Source: Bacillota bacterium (GTDB lineage Bacteria > Bacillota > Bacilli > Alicyclobacillales > Alicyclobacillaceae). From it: DNA of 6,230 bases. This document shows, in pieces, positions 1 through 5,508 of this stretch (the first letter of the stretch is position 1; each line of letters starts with the position of its first letter). The notes below the pieces were generated by a model, which saw only the letters and a list, made by a program, of their open reading frames with translations, made no database searches and was not told the DNA's origin. The DNA lies in NCBI GenBank assembly GCA_021820805.1, contig JAKADF010000072.1, positions 4,004 to 10,233 on the forward strand, written 5' to 3'. A program made the translations under genes and the position numbers.

Positions 1-317
1 AAAATTTCGTCACCTGGTCTGCATACTCCGAATAACGCAAGTCTTAAAGCATGGGTGCCAGATATAATCTGGGGCCTTACAAGTGCCTTTTGCGTTCCAA
101 AAACACGAGCATACATGCGTTCAAGCTTGTCTCTTCCTTCATCATCAAGCCCATACCCAGTTGACCCTGTCATATCAAGCGCAGAAACCCGCTCTGTCCA
201 AAACGCTTCAAGCACTTTTTTTTGGTTGACTTTTGCAATTTCTTCAACCTTATTAAAAGCAGATGAAACCTCCTCTTCACATTGATACAGCCATTCCGAC
301 AAATTCTTCGTTTCCAA
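1..317 (-). CDS. ynbB: YnbB-type PLP-dependent enzyme (methionine gamma-lyase / 'aluminum resistance' family), 5' part only
   Basis: The first 105 codons of a gene that runs out of the window at base 1. The reading frame gives residues such as ALDMTGSTGYGLDD, RMYARVFG and RPQIISGTHALRLALFG followed by RPGDE. These match my recollection of the N-terminal region of the YnbB family, fold-type I PLP enzymes of about 410-420 residues annotated as methionine gamma-lyase-like or aluminum resistance proteins; the PLP lysine would lie outside the window. An in-frame TAG lies 15 bases upstream of the chosen start. The first start after it is TTG at 317, preceded by GAGGGAG (326-332) with an 8-base spacer. 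The first ATG in frame falls inside conserved sequence, so TTG is favoured. It follows hflX by 30 bases, the same order as hflX-ynbB in B. subtilis. The true substrate is unknown from sequence. Confidence 0.85.
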   Translation of the reverse strand, partial: METKNLSEWLYQCEEEVSSAFNKVEEIAKVNQKKVLEAFWTERVSALDMTGSTGYGLDDEGRDKLERMYARVFGTQKALVRPQIISGTHALRLALFGVCRPGDEI

Positions 318-347: not shown

Positions 348-1634
348 TTATTGCAGCTCGTCCATTCCAAATATATCTAGCGTTTGGTTCCAAGACTCTA
401 TGTATTTACGATCCATTCGTAAAGTTACACGGACCGATCCGTTTTCACCAGGAGAAGTCTCAACAATTTGGCCGAAATGTGCAACTTTCACCCATATCTG
501 CCCGGCTTCTTTGGGAATGGACACTTCGATTTCAATCGGATCGAGCTTCAGATAAGCTTCAACTGATTCAATGAGTGCATCCATGCCTGTCTCATTTCCT
601 GCCGAACCGTAAATAGAGCAAATTGCCCTTGTATCGGGTCCTGGTTCAATACCAGCAATATCCATTTTATTAAAAAACGTAATGCAAGGCTTCGTGTCTG
701 CTCCAATTTCTTTTAAAACTTGATATGTTGTTTTTAGGTGAGCTTCAACATCATCACTCGCATCAACCACTTGAACAATCAAATCGCACGCTCTAACTTC
801 CTCGAGTGTTGAATGGAAAGCGTCAACAAGCAAATGTGGCAAATGATGAATAAAACCAACAGTATCTAGAATAACAAGTGAGCCTTTTGTCCCTGCTGAT
901 ACTTTCCTTGCAAATGGTTCAAGTGTGTCAAACAAACGCTTATTGCCCACAGGAGCTACCGATACACCCATTTTTTGAACCCATCGATTAAGGACAGTTG
1001 TTTTCCCTGCATTCGTATATCCAACAAGTGCAACAAGAGGAACATTTCGAGTTCTTTGTGCACGCTGTGTCTCGCGGATACGCTCAACATGCTGTAATGC
1101 TGCTTTCAGATGTGTTATACGCTTTCGTATCCGACGCCTGTCTGTCTCCAACTTTGTTTCACCCGGACCGCGTGTTCCGATGCCGCCCCCTAGTCTTGAC
1201 ATTTGGACACCACGGCCTGTCAGCCTAGGCAAGAGATACTGTAACTGTGCAATCTCTACCTGCAGTCGTCCAGCTTTGGACATAGCCCGCTGTGCAAATA
1301 TATCCAAAATTAACTGTGTCCTGTCAACAACCCGACAAGCAATTTCAGTCTCTAGATTCCGTACTTGTGCCGGAGACAGTTCATCATCAAAAACAATACA
1401 GTTCACAGATAATTCTGTAGTACGTGCTGCTATCTGTCCGATTTTTCCTTTGCCTAAATAAAGTGCAGAATCTGGTTTGTCCTTTTGTTGCGTAATGACA
1501 TCGGCCACAATTGCTCCAGCGGCCTCACACAGTCCGTGCATCTCCTCAATGCGCCGAAGAAACACATCTTCACTTTCGTGCGGAAATCGGCAAAGCGCAA
1601 TTATCACGGTTTGAACCTCATTTGCTTTTTTCAC
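348..1634 (-). CDS. hflX: GTPase HflX (ribosome-splitting / ribosome-rescue GTPase)
   Basis: A 428-residue protein, normal length for HflX. The N-terminal HflX domain is followed by the signature GGGIGTRGPGETKLE (about 149-163). The G domain has G1 GYTNAGKT (205-212), a switch I region LFDTLEP (234-240) with Thr237, G3 DTVGF (257-261) and G4 NKMD (322-325). A C-terminal tail is rich in beta-strand sequence. In studied bacteria HflX binds the 50S subunit and splits stalled or stress-inactivated 70S ribosomes using GTP. The start is GTG at 1634, directly after the TAA of the upstream gene. Its ribosome binding site GAGGTGG (1639-1645) lies in the last codons of that gene, so translation is probably coupled. 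No catalytic motif looks damaged; G1 ends KTT where KST is commoner. Its place downstream of spoVK implies at least part of its expression follows the sporulation programme, though this is inference. Confidence 0.96.
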   Translation of the reverse strand: MKKANEVQTVIIALCRFPHESEDVFLRRIEEMHGLCEAAGAIVADVITQQKDKPDSALYLGKGKIGQIAARTTELSVNCIVFDDELSPAQVRNLETEIACRVVDRTQLILDIFAQRAMSKAGRLQVEIAQLQYLLPRLTGRGVQMSRLGGGIGTRGPGETKLETDRRRIRKRITHLKAALQHVERIRETQRAQRTRNVPLVALVGYTNAGKTTVLNRWVQKMGVSVAPVGNKRLFDTLEPFARKVSAGTKGSLVILDTVGFIHHLPHLLVDAFHSTLEEVRACDLIVQVVDASDDVEAHLKTTYQVLKEIGADTKPCITFFNKMDIAGIEPGPDTRAICSIYGSAGNETGMDALIESVEAYLKLDPIEIEVSIPKEAGQIWVKVAHFGQIVETSPGENGSVRVTLRMDRKYIESWNQTLDIFGMDELQ

Positions 1635-2267
1635 TTATCCACCTCGATTTGAACCTCGCTGCCACATGCGTTCATTCTCGGAATCCATTAACTCAGTTGT
1701 TGTCGATTCAAAAAAAATATCCAACAAGCTGAATGCCGTTAAGGCAAGTACAGTCCAAGAAGTATTGAACAGTACAGTTATAACGAATGCAAATAAGACT
1801 GCAAACAGTGTAACTGCAACACCAAATCGATTTGCAATGTTTCTCTGCCCAGACATGCTGTCATGGTTCATATCTACAATAGCATCTAACCAATAGACAA
1901 CACACATCATGGCAAGTGCCCAAATTGTATCATGAACACCAAGTACCAACACACAAAGCAAAGTGGCTACTATAGATTCGATTACTGACTGCGGCTTTGA
2001 TTCCTGCTCCCAGGATTTGAATATTGGCCCTATTGCATAACTCGCCAGAAATACGCCTATTGCCAAATGGATGTTGCAAATTGCCGCAAACAGCACTGCC
2101 AAAATACTATATGGTAGTGCCTTTCGGCCAGTTTTTGCAGCAAAAGTACGTAAACCACTGCAAATATCGTATTCCGTATTGAATACATCATCCACCATCT
2201 TAGCAACAAAACCCGACCCTAGAATCGCACCAAAATCGAGTGCAAGGTTAAGCCAATTGGCGGACAT
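1635..2267 (-). CDS. Small UbiA-like multispanning membrane protein, uncharacterised
   Basis: A 210-residue, strongly hydrophobic protein with about seven candidate membrane segments (about 6-24, 51-67, 68-84, 94-112, 113-128, 148-167, 170-186) and a polar C-terminal tail. Two Asp-rich motifs stand out. DDVFNTEYD (26-34) fits the first UbiA motif NDxxDxxxD, with N replaced by D and the middle D by N. D128-D132-D136 fits the second motif DxxxDxxxD, and the following G140 and A145 and the F148-G149 pair line up with E. coli UbiA as I recall it. About four hydrophobic segments separate the motifs, as in UbiA proteins (integral membrane prenyltransferases, about 280-300 residues, nine helices). 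This one seems to lack helix 1 and one C-terminal helix. ATG 2267 is preceded by GAGGTG (2275-2280) at 7 bases. It overlaps the GTPase gene by 20 bases and abuts hflX. The assignment rests on motif spacing; catalytic activity and substrate are unknown. Confidence 0.85.
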   Translation of the reverse strand: MSANWLNLALDFGAILGSGFVAKMVDDVFNTEYDICSGLRTFAAKTGRKALPYSILAVLFAAICNIHLAIGVFLASYAIGPIFKSWEQESKPQSVIESIVATLLCVLVLGVHDTIWALAMMCVVYWLDAIVDMNHDSMSGQRNIANRFGVAVTLFAVLFAFVITVLFNTSWTVLALTAFSLLDIFFESTTTELMDSENERMWQRGSNRGG

Positions 2268-2853
2268 AGCGTTTCACCTCGCGAAACCCAATACCAGTCA
2301 ATGCTGAAATTGGGATTACGCGCTGCTTTGGAAATGCTCGTTTCAACATATGATAACCTTTTTTAGCACCGGGTAAATCCATTTTGTTCGCCAAGATGAC
2401 ATAGTCTTTCCGTGTAGAGCCAAATGCTGCTAATGCGTGATCTAAAGTTTGAATAGAGTTCCCAGATGCCAAAGCAAAAGATTGAACATCAATAACATGA
2501 AAAAGTATATGTGTATTTACCATCGCTTTTAACGTCTGTGCAATTGCACTGCGAATACGCATATCATTTGGAATACCATCGCAAAGTCCGGCAGTATCAG
2601 TTAATACGAGTTGTAAACGCTTTGTACGATGCCTTAATTCCATTGATACGGTTTGCATATACTCTGTACGATGACTCGTGTCTACAATTCCTCTGGAAAC
2701 TTCTTTAAGACTCATACGTTTCAGTTCCGTTGTACCGTCAGCACGTTCAACCCACCACTCGAGCTCTCGAAGCCCTAAAAATTTGGCGAATTGGACACAA
2801 AACATCGTTTTTCCAGATCCATGTTTACCGATAAGAATACATTGATTTTTCAT
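2248..2853 (-). CDS. Small Ras-like/TRAFAC P-loop GTPase, uncharacterised, in spoVK operon
   Basis: A 201-residue, single-domain GTPase. It has G1 GKHGSGKT (9-16), a possible switch I Thr in VDTSHRTE (57-64), G3 DTAG (86-89), G4 NKMD (156-159) and G5 SALTG (183-187). No second domain, KH domain or zinc motif is present, so it is not Era, Der, Obg or YsxC/EngB as such. A polar stretch with WWVERADG (33-40) lies between G1 and switch I. The start chosen is ATG 2853 with GGGAGG (2860-2865) six bases upstream; a TTG at 2883 in the same frame has no ribosome binding site and would put 10 unrelated residues before the P-loop strand. It overlaps the 3' end of spoVK by 29 bases and the membrane gene by 20, so it is probably co-translated with both. 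The GTPase fold is clear; its role is unknown. A regulatory partner of the membrane protein or SpoVK is a guess from context. Confidence 0.9.
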   Translation of the reverse strand: MKNQCILIGKHGSGKTMFCVQFAKFLGLRELEWWVERADGTTELKRMSLKEVSRGIVDTSHRTEYMQTVSMELRHRTKRLQLVLTDTAGLCDGIPNDMRIRSAIAQTLKAMVNTHILFHVIDVQSFALASGNSIQTLDHALAAFGSTRKDYVILANKMDLPGAKKGYHMLKRAFPKQRVIPISALTGIGFREVKRYVRQLA

Positions 2854-3832
2854 ATTCACCCTCCCATTGAAAATCGCTTGCAAACAATGTCATCAATTCA
2901 TCTCTTGTTGGATTTTTAGCATGAAACAATCGTACTGCATGCATGCGGATGGCAGCTTCGAGAGTATTTCGTACCCACCTGGCATTTCCAAATGGCCGAT
3001 TTAATGAAGGTCTAGCAAGTATTTGCTGCAAATGACGTCTTAATTTGACTTCTGCATCCGGATGGATTTTATACTGCCTCCCTGCTGCTCCTCGGCGAGC
3101 AATTTCGATAAGTGACGGTACATCATAATCAGGAAACTTTAGTTGTATTGGAAATCGACTCGGCAAACCAGGATTTGTGTTCAAAAACCATTCCATCTCC
3201 TGTTTGTACCCAGCTATAATAGCGACAAATTGATTTTTATAATCTTCCATGCCCTTGACCAGACAATCAATTGCTTCACGGCCAAAATCTTTTTCCCCGC
3301 CTCTTGCGAGGGAATAAGCTTCATCAATGAAAAGTACACCACCGAGGGCGCGTTTAATTTGTTCTTTTGTTTTTTGGGCCGTATGACCAATATACTCACC
3401 AACTAAGTCCGCACGCTCTACTTCAACTAAATGACCTTTTTCAAGTAAGCCGCATTCATGAAACATACTTGCCAAAAGGCGTGCAACGGTTGTTTTTCCT
3501 GTACCTGGATTGCCTTGAAAAACCATGTGCAATACAACTGGTTCTGTTTTCAGACGTAAGCGCTCCCGCTCTTGTTGAATATATAAAAATGCAAATATTT
3601 GTCTAACCGTCTGTTTTACTTCTTTTAGACCAACCAAACTGTCTAGTTCAGCTAAAATCGCTTCCAAACGATCTCGATTAATAACAGGTCGTACCACCGT
3701 TTTATCACTTGGCAATCCACCGCCAGACAGACGACTAAGTGCTTCCTTTAAAGCAATTTGTCCTTGTTGAAACTCATCAATAATTTGATGGGTTTGATAG
3801 TTATCGGGAAAACGTCTTGTGCCAGAATGCAA
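2825..3832 (-). CDS. spoVK: Stage V sporulation protein K (AAA+ ATPase, CbbX/CfxQ family)
   Basis: A 335-residue AAA+ ATPase, close to the 322 residues of B. subtilis SpoVK. It has Walker A GNPGTGKTT (107-115), a pore-loop region EYIGHTAQKT (146-155), Walker B LFIDEAY (167-173), sensor 1 region AIIAGYK (204-210), an arginine finger in NPGLPSRFP (R226) and sensor 2 FGNARWVRN (281-289). The segment around ERADLVGEYIGH and the stretch SLARGGEKDFG match SpoVK as I remember it. SpoVK acts in the sporulating cell and is needed for spore maturation; its substrate is not settled. The start is TTG 3832 with GAGGTG (3840-3845) at 7 bases. It is first in a five-gene operon, about 100 bases after a terminator. 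Transcription by mother-cell sigma E would be expected from B. subtilis, but I see no convincing sigma E promoter. The end overlaps the GTPase gene by 29 bases. Confidence 0.96.
   Translation of the reverse strand: MHSGTRRFPDNYQTHQIIDEFQQGQIALKEALSRLSGGGLPSDKTVVRPVINRDRLEAILAELDSLVGLKEVKQTVRQIFAFLYIQQERERLRLKTEPVVLHMVFQGNPGTGKTTVARLLASMFHECGLLEKGHLVEVERADLVGEYIGHTAQKTKEQIKRALGGVLFIDEAYSLARGGEKDFGREAIDCLVKGMEDYKNQFVAIIAGYKQEMEWFLNTNPGLPSRFPIQLKFPDYDVPSLIEIARRGAAGRQYKIHPDAEVKLRRHLQQILARPSLNRPFGNARWVRNTLEAAIRMHAVRLFHAKNPTRDELMTLFASDFQWEGEYEKSMYSYR
2860..2865 (-). promoter_or_regulatory. Ribosome binding site deciding the GTPase start
   Basis: The minus strand reads GGGAGG (within GGGAGGGTG), six bases before ATG 2853, and lies inside the 3' end of spoVK. 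It supports 2853 over the upstream TTG at 2883, which has no purine-rich site before it. Confidence 0.7.
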
Positions 3833-3937
3833 CAGGTATCACCTCATACTTTTGGTTCTATTCCCTTCTAAATGGGCGAATGTCACATCCTACACTATGC
3901 ACGAACTGAAATCTGGGTGAACGCCCAAAGCTGAAAC
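3833..3937 (-). other. Leader / promoter region of the spoVK operon
   Basis: About 100 bases between the spoVAF-like terminator and spoVK. It must hold the spoVK operon promoter if the operon is transcribed separately. A GCATAGT at about 3893-3899 on the minus strand recalls a sporulation -35 element, but no -10 at correct spacing matches sigma E, F or G consensus, so no promoter is called. A short near-palindrome, TGGGTGAACGCCCA, lies at about 3913-3926. Confidence 0.4.
3840..3845 (-). promoter_or_regulatory. Ribosome binding site supporting the TTG start of spoVK
   Basis: The minus strand reads GAGGTG, seven bases before TTG at 3832. The next Met codons in the frame lie far inside the ATPase domain (around residue 103), so TTG is the only sensible start. 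Confidence 0.75.
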
Positions 3938-3974
3938 AAAAAAACCTCTGGTATGATAATTCAGTACCAGAGGT
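3938..3974 (-). terminator. Rho-independent terminator of the spoVAF-like gene
   Basis: A perfect 9-bp inverted repeat, cctctggta (3945-3953) and taccagagg (3965-3973), with an 11-base loop, extended by one A-T pair. On the minus strand it is followed by seven Ts (3944-3938). It begins about 32 bases after the stop of the spoVAF-like gene and separates that gene from spoVK. The other side has CGTTTT, so weak termination in the plus direction is possible. Confidence 0.9.
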
Positions 3975-4005
3975 CGTTTTATTAAGCTTGCGGATCAAAC
4001 AGAAA

Positions 4006-5508
4006 TTAGGTTTTGCTTTTCCGCCGGAATAAATCTGGCACCCCATTTAATTGAGGTGTTGGCAATCTGAGTAAAATATCTTTCAGTCCTCGATTCCATT
4101 TAAATGGAACTAATGGCCATAAATATGGAACTCCAAATGATTTTGTCGATAACAACAACCCAAATAAAGATACGACCGAAATGGCAAAACCTACTCCCCC
4201 TAAAGCTGCAGTCCACAGAGTTGTCCAGAGTCTCGCCATTTGATTTGCGCTGCCAAGTTCATAAGATGAAGTTGCGTATTGCGCTACCATAACAAGCCCC
4301 ATATATACCAGCACTTCAGGCTGTAAAAGCTGTATTTTGGCAGCAAATTGACTAAATAACAAGGCTGCAACAATACTGACTGCCGAACCTAGCACTGGTG
4401 GAGTATTAATGACAGCCAACCGGAGTATATCGAGACCAACCTCCGCCACAAGAATCTCCGCCCAAAGCGGTAACGGAAAAGTGCTGTCCGCTTTAAAAAA
4501 CCTTAACCACACCGGCATTATTTCTGGATGCGCATTCATAACAAGGAAAATTCCAGGCAAAAAAATACTTAAAAAAACAGCAATAAGAATGACCCAGCGC
4601 AAGTATGTACCAATAAGCGGATATGAGTGATACTCCTGCGGATGTTGCATATGTTGAAAGAATGTCGTTGGTGCAATAATTACGTCAGAAGTCGTATCGA
4701 CAACAATGACGACTTGCCCTTCTATAAGCGCCGCACTTGCAACATCAGGCCTTTGGGTATATCTTGCAATCGGGAAAGGATTCCACTTAACTTTTCCAAT
4801 AACATCAATGACTTCTTGCTCGCCCATCATGAGGCCGTCTGTTTTCATGCTTTTTAAGCGATTACGCATATCATCGACAAGCTGCACATCTGCAACATCT
4901 TTTAAGTACATTAAGCTGACATCTGTTTGCGAACGAGATCCAACTTGCATTAATTCCACACGTAATCTTGGATCACGCAGGCGTCTGCGTATCAATGACG
5001 TATTCATGAGCATTGTTTCAGTAAACCCATCATGATTACCACGTATAACACGTTCCATCATGGGCGTAGTAATACTGCGCATTGGATAAATACGAGTATC
5101 AATTAGAAGGGCTGCATCATACCCGTCAATAAATGTAATTAAAGGACCTGATAATATGAAACGTACGGCATCAGACATCTTATAAACAGGCTGAACTTGA
5201 ACGAATGCGACATGTGTGTTCAAATATTGAACTAACTCAACAAACGTAAAAGTGCTGCCTTTGTGTTCTTCTAAAAAATTTTGAATGCATTGCTGGAGAT
5301 TTTCAAGGATTAAAACCATATTCATCGTTAGGAAGTATCCATTAGCAACATAAGACATCATATTTAAGTTCCCAAATCGGAACGGCTTAGCTAACACATC
5401 CCAACTTACACCAACGCCGATTAATTCATTTAAAAAATCAACGTTATCTTCTAGAACGCCTGATATCTTTCGATCCTCAATCTCCGGAAGCACTGCAGCC
5501 ATGATCAT
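4006..5508 (-). CDS. spoVAF: GerA-family spore membrane protein, SpoVAF-like
   Basis: A 500-residue protein of the GerA family (germinant receptor A subunits and SpoVAF), normal length. The soluble N-terminal half has VGVSWDV (32-38), GFTETMLMNTSLIRRRLRDP (161-180) and the conserved NPFPIARYTQRPDV (243-256). A C-terminal membrane domain follows from about residue 300, with segments near 303-325, 348-366, 372-390, 397-411 and 431-455, then PYLWPL (461-466). The VGVSWDV N-terminus, the GTYLRW junction (300-305) and the PYLWPL end resemble SpoVAF more than GerAA. In Bacillus, SpoVAF works with germination receptors in the inner spore membrane and helps release ions and dipicolinate during germination. 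ATG 5508 has AAGGGG (5513-5518) only 4 bases away; a second ATG at 5502 has a more usual 10-base spacing and could be the true start. It has its own terminator and no spoVA genes next to it. The GerA family is certain; the SpoVAF subtype is likely. Confidence 0.9.
   Translation of the reverse strand: MIMAAVLPEIEDRKISGVLEDNVDFLNELIGVGVSWDVLAKPFRFGNLNMMSYVANGYFLTMNMVLILENLQQCIQNFLEEHKGSTFTFVELVQYLNTHVAFVQVQPVYKMSDAVRFILSGPLITFIDGYDAALLIDTRIYPMRSITTPMMERVIRGNHDGFTETMLMNTSLIRRRLRDPRLRVELMQVGSRSQTDVSLMYLKDVADVQLVDDMRNRLKSMKTDGLMMGEQEVIDVIGKVKWNPFPIARYTQRPDVASAALIEGQVVIVVDTTSDVIIAPTTFFQHMQHPQEYHSYPLIGTYLRWVILIAVFLSIFLPGIFLVMNAHPEIMPVWLRFFKADSTFPLPLWAEILVAEVGLDILRLAVINTPPVLGSAVSIVAALLFSQFAAKIQLLQPEVLVYMGLVMVAQYATSSYELGSANQMARLWTTLWTAALGGVGFAISVVSLFGLLLSTKSFGVPYLWPLVPFKWNRGLKDILLRLPTPQLNGVPDLFRRKSKT

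Follow-up and report, generated by a model that had tools for sequence, protein, structure and literature searches.

The window analysed here, a 6,230-nt stretch of DNA, carries a gene for a small membrane protein with two Asp-rich motifs, encoded directly behind a GTPase gene and spoVK (Table 1). The locus raises two questions: whether this protein, which we call mini-UbiA, is a shortened relative of the UbiA prenyltransferases, and what such a protein might do beside a GTPase and a sporulation gene.

An earlier note, made from the sequence of the window, had read a 210-residue protein with the motifs D26-D27-x-x-N30-x-x-x-D34 and D128-xxx-D132-xxx-D136, followed by a Gly...Ala...Phe-Gly pattern. 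The ORF indeed carries both motifs, and the pattern behind the second is made up of G140, A145 and F148-G149. spoVK shares 29 nt with the GTPase gene, which in turn shares 20 nt with the mini-UbiA gene, and hflX begins at the base immediately after the mini-UbiA gene. Given this overlapping or abutting layout on a single strand, the four genes are probably co-transcribed. The SpoVK of the window scores below the TIGR02881 cut-off (387.8 against 422.95 bits), which seems strict for the phylum, since only 46 of 398 genomes pass it.

Table 1. Features of the window, with coordinates counted from its first nucleotide
Feature	Coordinates	Strand	Basis
Mini-UbiA protein, 210 aa	1635..2267	-	ORF (ATG start), family alignment A4, profile match to full-length UbiA, AlphaFold model
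Asp motif 1, residues 26-34 (DDVFNTEYD)	2166..2192	-	Sequence and conservation
Asp motif 2, residues 128-136 (DAIVDMNHD)	1860..1886	-	Sequence and conservation
Internal repeat copy 1, residues 20-88	2004..2210	-	hhalign of the two halves
Internal repeat copy 2, residues 122-191	1695..1904	-	hhalign of the two halves
Small Obg/HflX-like GTPase	2248..2853 (from its ATG)	-	Pfam/NCBIfam; G1, G3, G4 and G5 motifs intact
SpoVK, AAA+ ATPase, directly upstream of the GTPase/mini-UbiA pair	2825..3832	-	TIGR02881, 387.8 bits
HflX GTPase, next gene downstream of mini-UbiA	348..1634	-	TIGR03156, over cut-off
GerA-type spore germination protein, neighbour	4006..5508	-	PF03323, E=7.6e-131
YnbB-like / methionine gamma-lyase-type gene start, runs off the window	3..317	-	PF06838, E=5.5e-35

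A family of short proteins found through spoVK

The first homologue search yielded only three relatives, at 56-70% identity. A protein search with the A1 profile found nothing beyond the four known proteins, and neither a scan of genome contigs with the same profile nor a scan of viral contigs confirmed any relatives; the genome-contig scan was insensitive, since it also missed a distant member in locus L001. That member came from a scan anchored on SpoVK, which led to a Thermoanaerobacterales MAG (L001) where spoVK and the GTPase are accompanied by a 206-aa protein with DDYMDMEFD and DDYADYRTD at positions matching the window motifs.

We searched 398 genomes from the phylum of this MAG (Bacillota in the wide sense) and found the GTPase at E<=1e-18 in 96 and the mini-UbiA profile at E<=1e-4 in 97. 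Five of the latter, with matches of about 1e-5 to full-length UbiA frames of 315-345 aa, were set aside, leaving 92 mini-UbiA genomes. A second sample of 200 genomes, from the class (Bacilli) of the Paenibacillus genome of L008, contained mini-UbiA at E<=1e-8 in 29 and the GTPase at E<=1e-25 in 33. The family is uncharacterised, and its proteins measure about 190-210 aa in the 53 rows examined. Organisms named as carriers are Thermosediminibacter litoriperuensis, Tepidanaerobacter acetatoxydans Re1, Tepidanaerobacter sp. GT38 and Thermoanaerobacterium sp. DL9XJH110; their mini-UbiA proteins go by 'hypothetical' or 'unknown function' in annotation. One UniRef entry of the family opens 'UbiA prenyltransferase famil', so the UbiA label is already present in automatic annotation.

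Conservation of the Asp motifs

The Asp positions proved to be conserved among homologues. Across 53 aligned rows (44 of A4 and nine from Bacilli), motif 1 retains D26 in 51, D27 in 53, D30 in 49 and D34 in 40, and motif 2 retains D128 in 51, D129 in 49, D132 in 49 and D136 in 42; E97 (52), Y53 (52) and G149 (53) are also conserved. The family norm is thus DDxxD for motif 1 and DDxxDxxxD for motif 2. Because the three intact 56-70% relatives and 40 further distinct relatives share the layout, the motif arrangement of the window protein is, as judged from these alignments, more than chance. The first UbiA motif, NDxxDxxxD, compares with the DDxxD of the family and with DDxxNxxxD in the window, while the second, DxxxD, has its counterpart in D128 and D132, both of which the window protein has.

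The earlier note had regarded both D26 and N30 as replacements within motif 1. N30 does deviate, in three of the four members of the window's clade; D26 is no replacement, since it is the rule in the family. Relative to the 53 rows, the window protein stands out by N30, A129 and P81, and Asn at position 26 occurs in P0002 and P0003 only. Sixteen departures fall at positions 26, 27, 30, 128, 129 and 132, with 11 in the window clade, four in L174 and one in L052, so that, within this alignment, changes to the Asp motifs are clustered in the four-member clade of the window. The presence of N30 and A129 in this clade suggests weakened or altered metal binding.

Homology to UbiA

The earlier note had proposed a reduced or divergent UbiA member that has lost helix 1 and one C-terminal helix. 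A reduced relative, missing helix 1 and the C-terminal end, agrees with a collinear profile match and with the seven-helix model of a family member (P0010). Using hhalign, columns 3-169 of 208 in the family profile aligned collinearly with columns 38-225 of 325 in a profile built from 30 full-length UbiA proteins (163 columns; probability 91.7; score 51.3), with each Asp motif opposite its counterpart; hhalign probabilities throughout are those of single comparisons rather than of a database search. Columns 1-37 and 226-325 of full-length UbiA have no partner in the mini-UbiA profile. The reversed profile and 20 rotations scored at most 18.6 against the same target, which led us to reject the notion that the UbiA similarity is a chance Pfam match. 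At the profile level, then, mini-UbiA is homologous to UbiA, minus helix 1 and the C-terminal end. The 30 full-length proteins are the 30 loci obtained from 34 PF01040 matches in 13 of 14 genomes, with frames picked by hydropathy; L145 and L149, which have long frames, are possibly poor rows. The four-member clade of the window, taken alone, had no match to full-length UbiA (2.7%) and matched the rest of the mini-UbiA family at 99.8%.

A search against PF01040 had been proposed as a check. PF01040 is the best Pfam match of the window protein, at a score (19.3 bits) under the curated cut-off of 34.2. P0002, P0003 and P0004 reach 25.8, 28.6 and 30.7 bits, so none of these four family members passes. 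PF01040 matches at E<=1 were found in 16 of 44 members (best E 5.4e-8), and the L001 protein had none at that threshold. PDB sequence searches with P0004 and A1 gave no match; the best PDB match of the family profile was M. jannaschii DGGGP synthase, around motif 2 (E=0.022). We also considered mini-UbiA as a substitute for full-length UbiA; it is no replacement, because full-length UbiA coexists with it in all four mini-UbiA genomes among the 14 searched.

The P0010 AlphaFold model has seven long helices, with the motifs after helix 1 and helix 5, and so falls below the eight or nine membrane helices typical of the UbiA family (PMC4106721). Its helices 43-65, 67-83, 96-111 and 113-133 account for the roughly four hydrophobic segments first read between the motifs; the window model (pLDDT 87.1) merges the first two into one, 42-84. 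Foldseek matches of both models were weak (E 0.17 or worse), and AfUbiA chains made up eight of the first ten rows for the window model. For that model VIA ranked ABC transporters first, which we interpret as generic helix packing; for the second model, UbiA or isoprenyl-diphosphate-synthase-type chains occupied 25 of 50 VIA rows, as weak matches.

Mini-UbiA thus shares with UbiA (PF01040; A. fulgidus 4tq3-4tq6, A. pernix 4od4/4od5, M. jannaschii DGGGP synthase 6m31) a pair of Asp-rich motifs in corresponding positions, four inter-motif helices, a G/N-x-A-x-x-x-G stretch after the motif and a collinear profile. It differs in its length (about 200 aa as against about 280-300), in the missing helix 1 and C-terminal part, in having D rather than N at the first position of motif 1, in its visible internal repeat, in its coupling to a GTPase and in its PF01040 score under the cut-off. 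The trans-isoprenyl diphosphate synthases (FPPS/GGPPS/octaprenyl-PP synthases), whose fold is related to that of UbiA (PMC4106721), also have DDxxD motifs, and several appeared in our PDB profile and fold lists; unlike mini-UbiA they are soluble, and they match it weakly and over a short stretch (E 0.12 or worse).

An internal repeat

AfUbiA has twofold pseudosymmetry, with two four-helix bundles, and an origin by duplication of a four-helix protein has been proposed from its structure (PMC4106721). We found that the two halves of mini-UbiA resemble each other in sequence: in hhalign, a single gap suffices to align the two repeat copies in the window protein, with 20% identities, and the half profiles match with a probability of 97.8 and a score of 66.7 (52 rows, omitting L174, which has lost both Asp motifs). 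None of 100 column shuffles reached this score (<=22.6), and 114 reversed rotations gave at most 13.9. With everything up to the motifs removed, the match persisted at 94.8% and a score of 36.0, with shuffles at or below 12.4. By this comparison the two halves are homologous. The same test gave 4.4% for the halves of the 30 full-length UbiA proteins and 44.7% for A7, a set of 14 full-length proteins selected for matching A4.

Comparisons with A7 (mN-cC 86.2, mN-cN 3.1) had raised the idea that both mini-UbiA halves resemble the second half of UbiA, which was not upheld with the 30 proteins chosen by PF01040 (mN-dN 49.5, mN-dC 4.1, mC-dN 79.0, mC-dC 53.2). Mini-UbiA provides the clearest sequence trace of the proposed UbiA duplication found here, and the repeat may be ancestral or may reflect a later re-duplication.

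The partner GTPase

In all 92 mini-UbiA genomes of the 398, every one of which belongs to the 96 with the GTPase, the two genes lie on the same contig and strand with mini-UbiA downstream. Fewer than 150 nt separate the match ends in 87, and more than 2.6 kb in three. In L105 and L106 the wide gap holds genes for a histidine kinase and a response regulator; L107, the third, has a same-size frame in between, probably the same pair. Four GTPase genomes were without mini-UbiA: in one (L111) the contig ends just after the GTPase, and in the other three mini-UbiA was absent from the stretch examined. The second sample comprised 27 genomes with both matches, and the other two mini-UbiA genes adjoin a diverged GTPase. 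The pair is adjacent in 28 of the 29, the exception being G543 (L172, L173), where the two genes are on different contigs and spoVK stays with the GTPase. A GTPase match without mini-UbiA was seen in six of these Bacilli genomes, and also in G045, G089 and G332.

The GTPases, too, form an uncharacterised family. Its members are about 200 aa long and share a conserved region, PHKTRxLQ, ahead of G3 (consensus of A5, an alignment that omits the GTPases of L026, L035, L058 and L059, which were missed by the P-loop search or have a broken frame). The family has the G1, G3, G4 and G5 motifs in common with Obg/HflX/Der-type GTPases, and its best PDB profile match is the Spo0B-associated GTP-binding protein 1lnz (E=1.8e-13). 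It differs from Obg and HflX in being without their extra domains, and the NCBIfam scores of the window GTPase are far below the cut-offs.

Several loci depart from the usual form. One genome (G529, L174) has lost both mini-UbiA Asp motifs, and the adjoining GTPase is without G3, G4 and G5; both frames and the gene order persist there (3318-4524) despite the motif loss. In L175 the GTPase is without G3 and G4, and mini-UbiA retains its Asp motifs. A single 382-aa frame joins the two domains in G379 (L104, 1909-3054), which may be a genuine fusion or the product of a single indel in a draft contig. The GTPase gene has an internal stop or is split into two frames in G044, G122 and G233, where the mini-UbiA frames are intact.

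spoVK and sporulation

SpoVK (TIGR02881 at E<=1e-70) was found in 275 of the 398 genomes and in 91 of the 92 with mini-UbiA; the Fisher value for this co-occurrence (3.8e-16) is no clean probability, because the genomes are related. Among 40 distinct loci, spoVK lies directly upstream of the pair in 38, and one locus (L179, G562) repeats the window order GerA-SpoVK-GTPase-mini-UbiA-HflX-YnbB. Truncated spoVK frames occur in L171 (161 aa, region 2292-4467) and L175 (181 aa, 3444-3986), both in reverse-strand coordinates; just upstream of the former, a 597-aa frame with a resolvase-like stretch looks like an element inserted in spoVK. A sigma-E-like promoter was not enriched upstream of spoVK: 2 of 29 regions fell at or below 0.1 of shuffles, and in the window 0.86 of shuffles were as good.

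HflX has a role outside sporulation. YnbB has been linked to EF-P modification (PMC5885033), and since these next-door genes have other roles, gene order is weak evidence for a sporulation role of the pair. In B. subtilis, SpoVK is reported to activate the lipid II-making enzyme MurG at the surface of the forespore during sporulation (PMC10659427); the word UbiA does not occur in the text of that article. Open-access PMC text yielded no description of a GTPase-UbiA module.

A possible role in handling lipid carriers

A prenyl-diphosphate-type protein, a GTPase and the chaperone of the lipid II enzyme share a probable operon, which suggests handling of lipid carriers. The reading we favour, and hold at about even odds, is that mini-UbiA is a reduced and internally duplicated UbiA relative of about seven helices that, linked to the GTPase, handles prenyl diphosphates for the assembly of the spore envelope. 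On the cytoplasmic side, between its Asp motifs, mini-UbiA would bind Mg2+ together with a polyprenyl diphosphate or a lipid that bears one; the partner GTPase would bind mini-UbiA and gate or sense its lipid-bound state; and the pair would serve spore-envelope assembly beside SpoVK. In favour of this reading we count the profile match, the conserved Asp positions, the seven-helix model, the linkage to the GTPase and to SpoVK, the paired motif loss in G529 and the joint frame in G379; the sub-cut-off PF01040 scores, the weak fold matches, the unmatched window clade and the missing promoter enrichment tell against it. It is homology that would tie mini-UbiA to prenyl diphosphates, and a part for the pair in the SpoVK pathway is one that we infer, the SpoVK-MurG report concerning B. 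subtilis. We think it unlikely that a more specific version holds, in which the symmetric tandem duplication proposed to lie behind the UbiA fold has been kept or regained in sequence and the protein, gated by its GTPase, handles prenyl-diphosphate lipids at the forespore membrane, where it would supply or sense carriers for SpoVK/MurG-driven cortex synthesis.

Mini-UbiA might instead be a true small prenyltransferase that prenylates an acceptor specific to spores, assisted by the GTPase as an accessory. The UbiA reaction requires both Asp motifs (PMC4106721), and most rows keep both motifs of the catalytic fold. This reading nevertheless seems improbable to us: with helix 1 and the C-terminal part absent, part of the canonical cavity wall is missing; the full-length UbiA proteins in the four genomes mean that mini-UbiA would not be their sole prenyltransferase; and the window clade and L174 keep the gene despite altered or lost motifs. 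That same retention in L174, together with drift in the window clade at N30, A129 and E132 and the strict linkage to the GTPase (92/92), would suit a membrane protein of UbiA-like ancestry that has no enzymatic role and serves the GTPase as an anchor or scaffold, its Asp motifs binding lipid head groups or a metal only structurally. A mere anchor would not need the D26, D27, D30, D128, D129 and D132 found in 49-53 of 53 rows, however, and the GTPase of L174 has decayed too, so we consider an anchor doubtful. Finally, a seven-helix membrane protein unrelated to UbiA, with convergent DDxxD motifs, would fit the PF01040 scores under cut-off, the weak fold matches with ABC transporters first in VIA and the failure of the window clade alone to match the UbiA profile, yet it is very improbable in view of the 163-column collinear match, which includes both motifs and lies far over controls, and of the AfUbiA and UbiA/isoprenyl-diphosphate-synthase-type chains among the Foldseek and VIA rows.

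The family matters in two respects. Because its repeat is visible in sequence, the proposed duplication origin of the UbiA fold can now be tested on structures and trees of its two halves. An uncharacterised GTPase and a prenyl-diphosphate-type membrane protein at the spoVK locus, in 92 of 398 sampled genomes, also open the way to a genetic test of how lipid carriers are handled in spore-envelope assembly.
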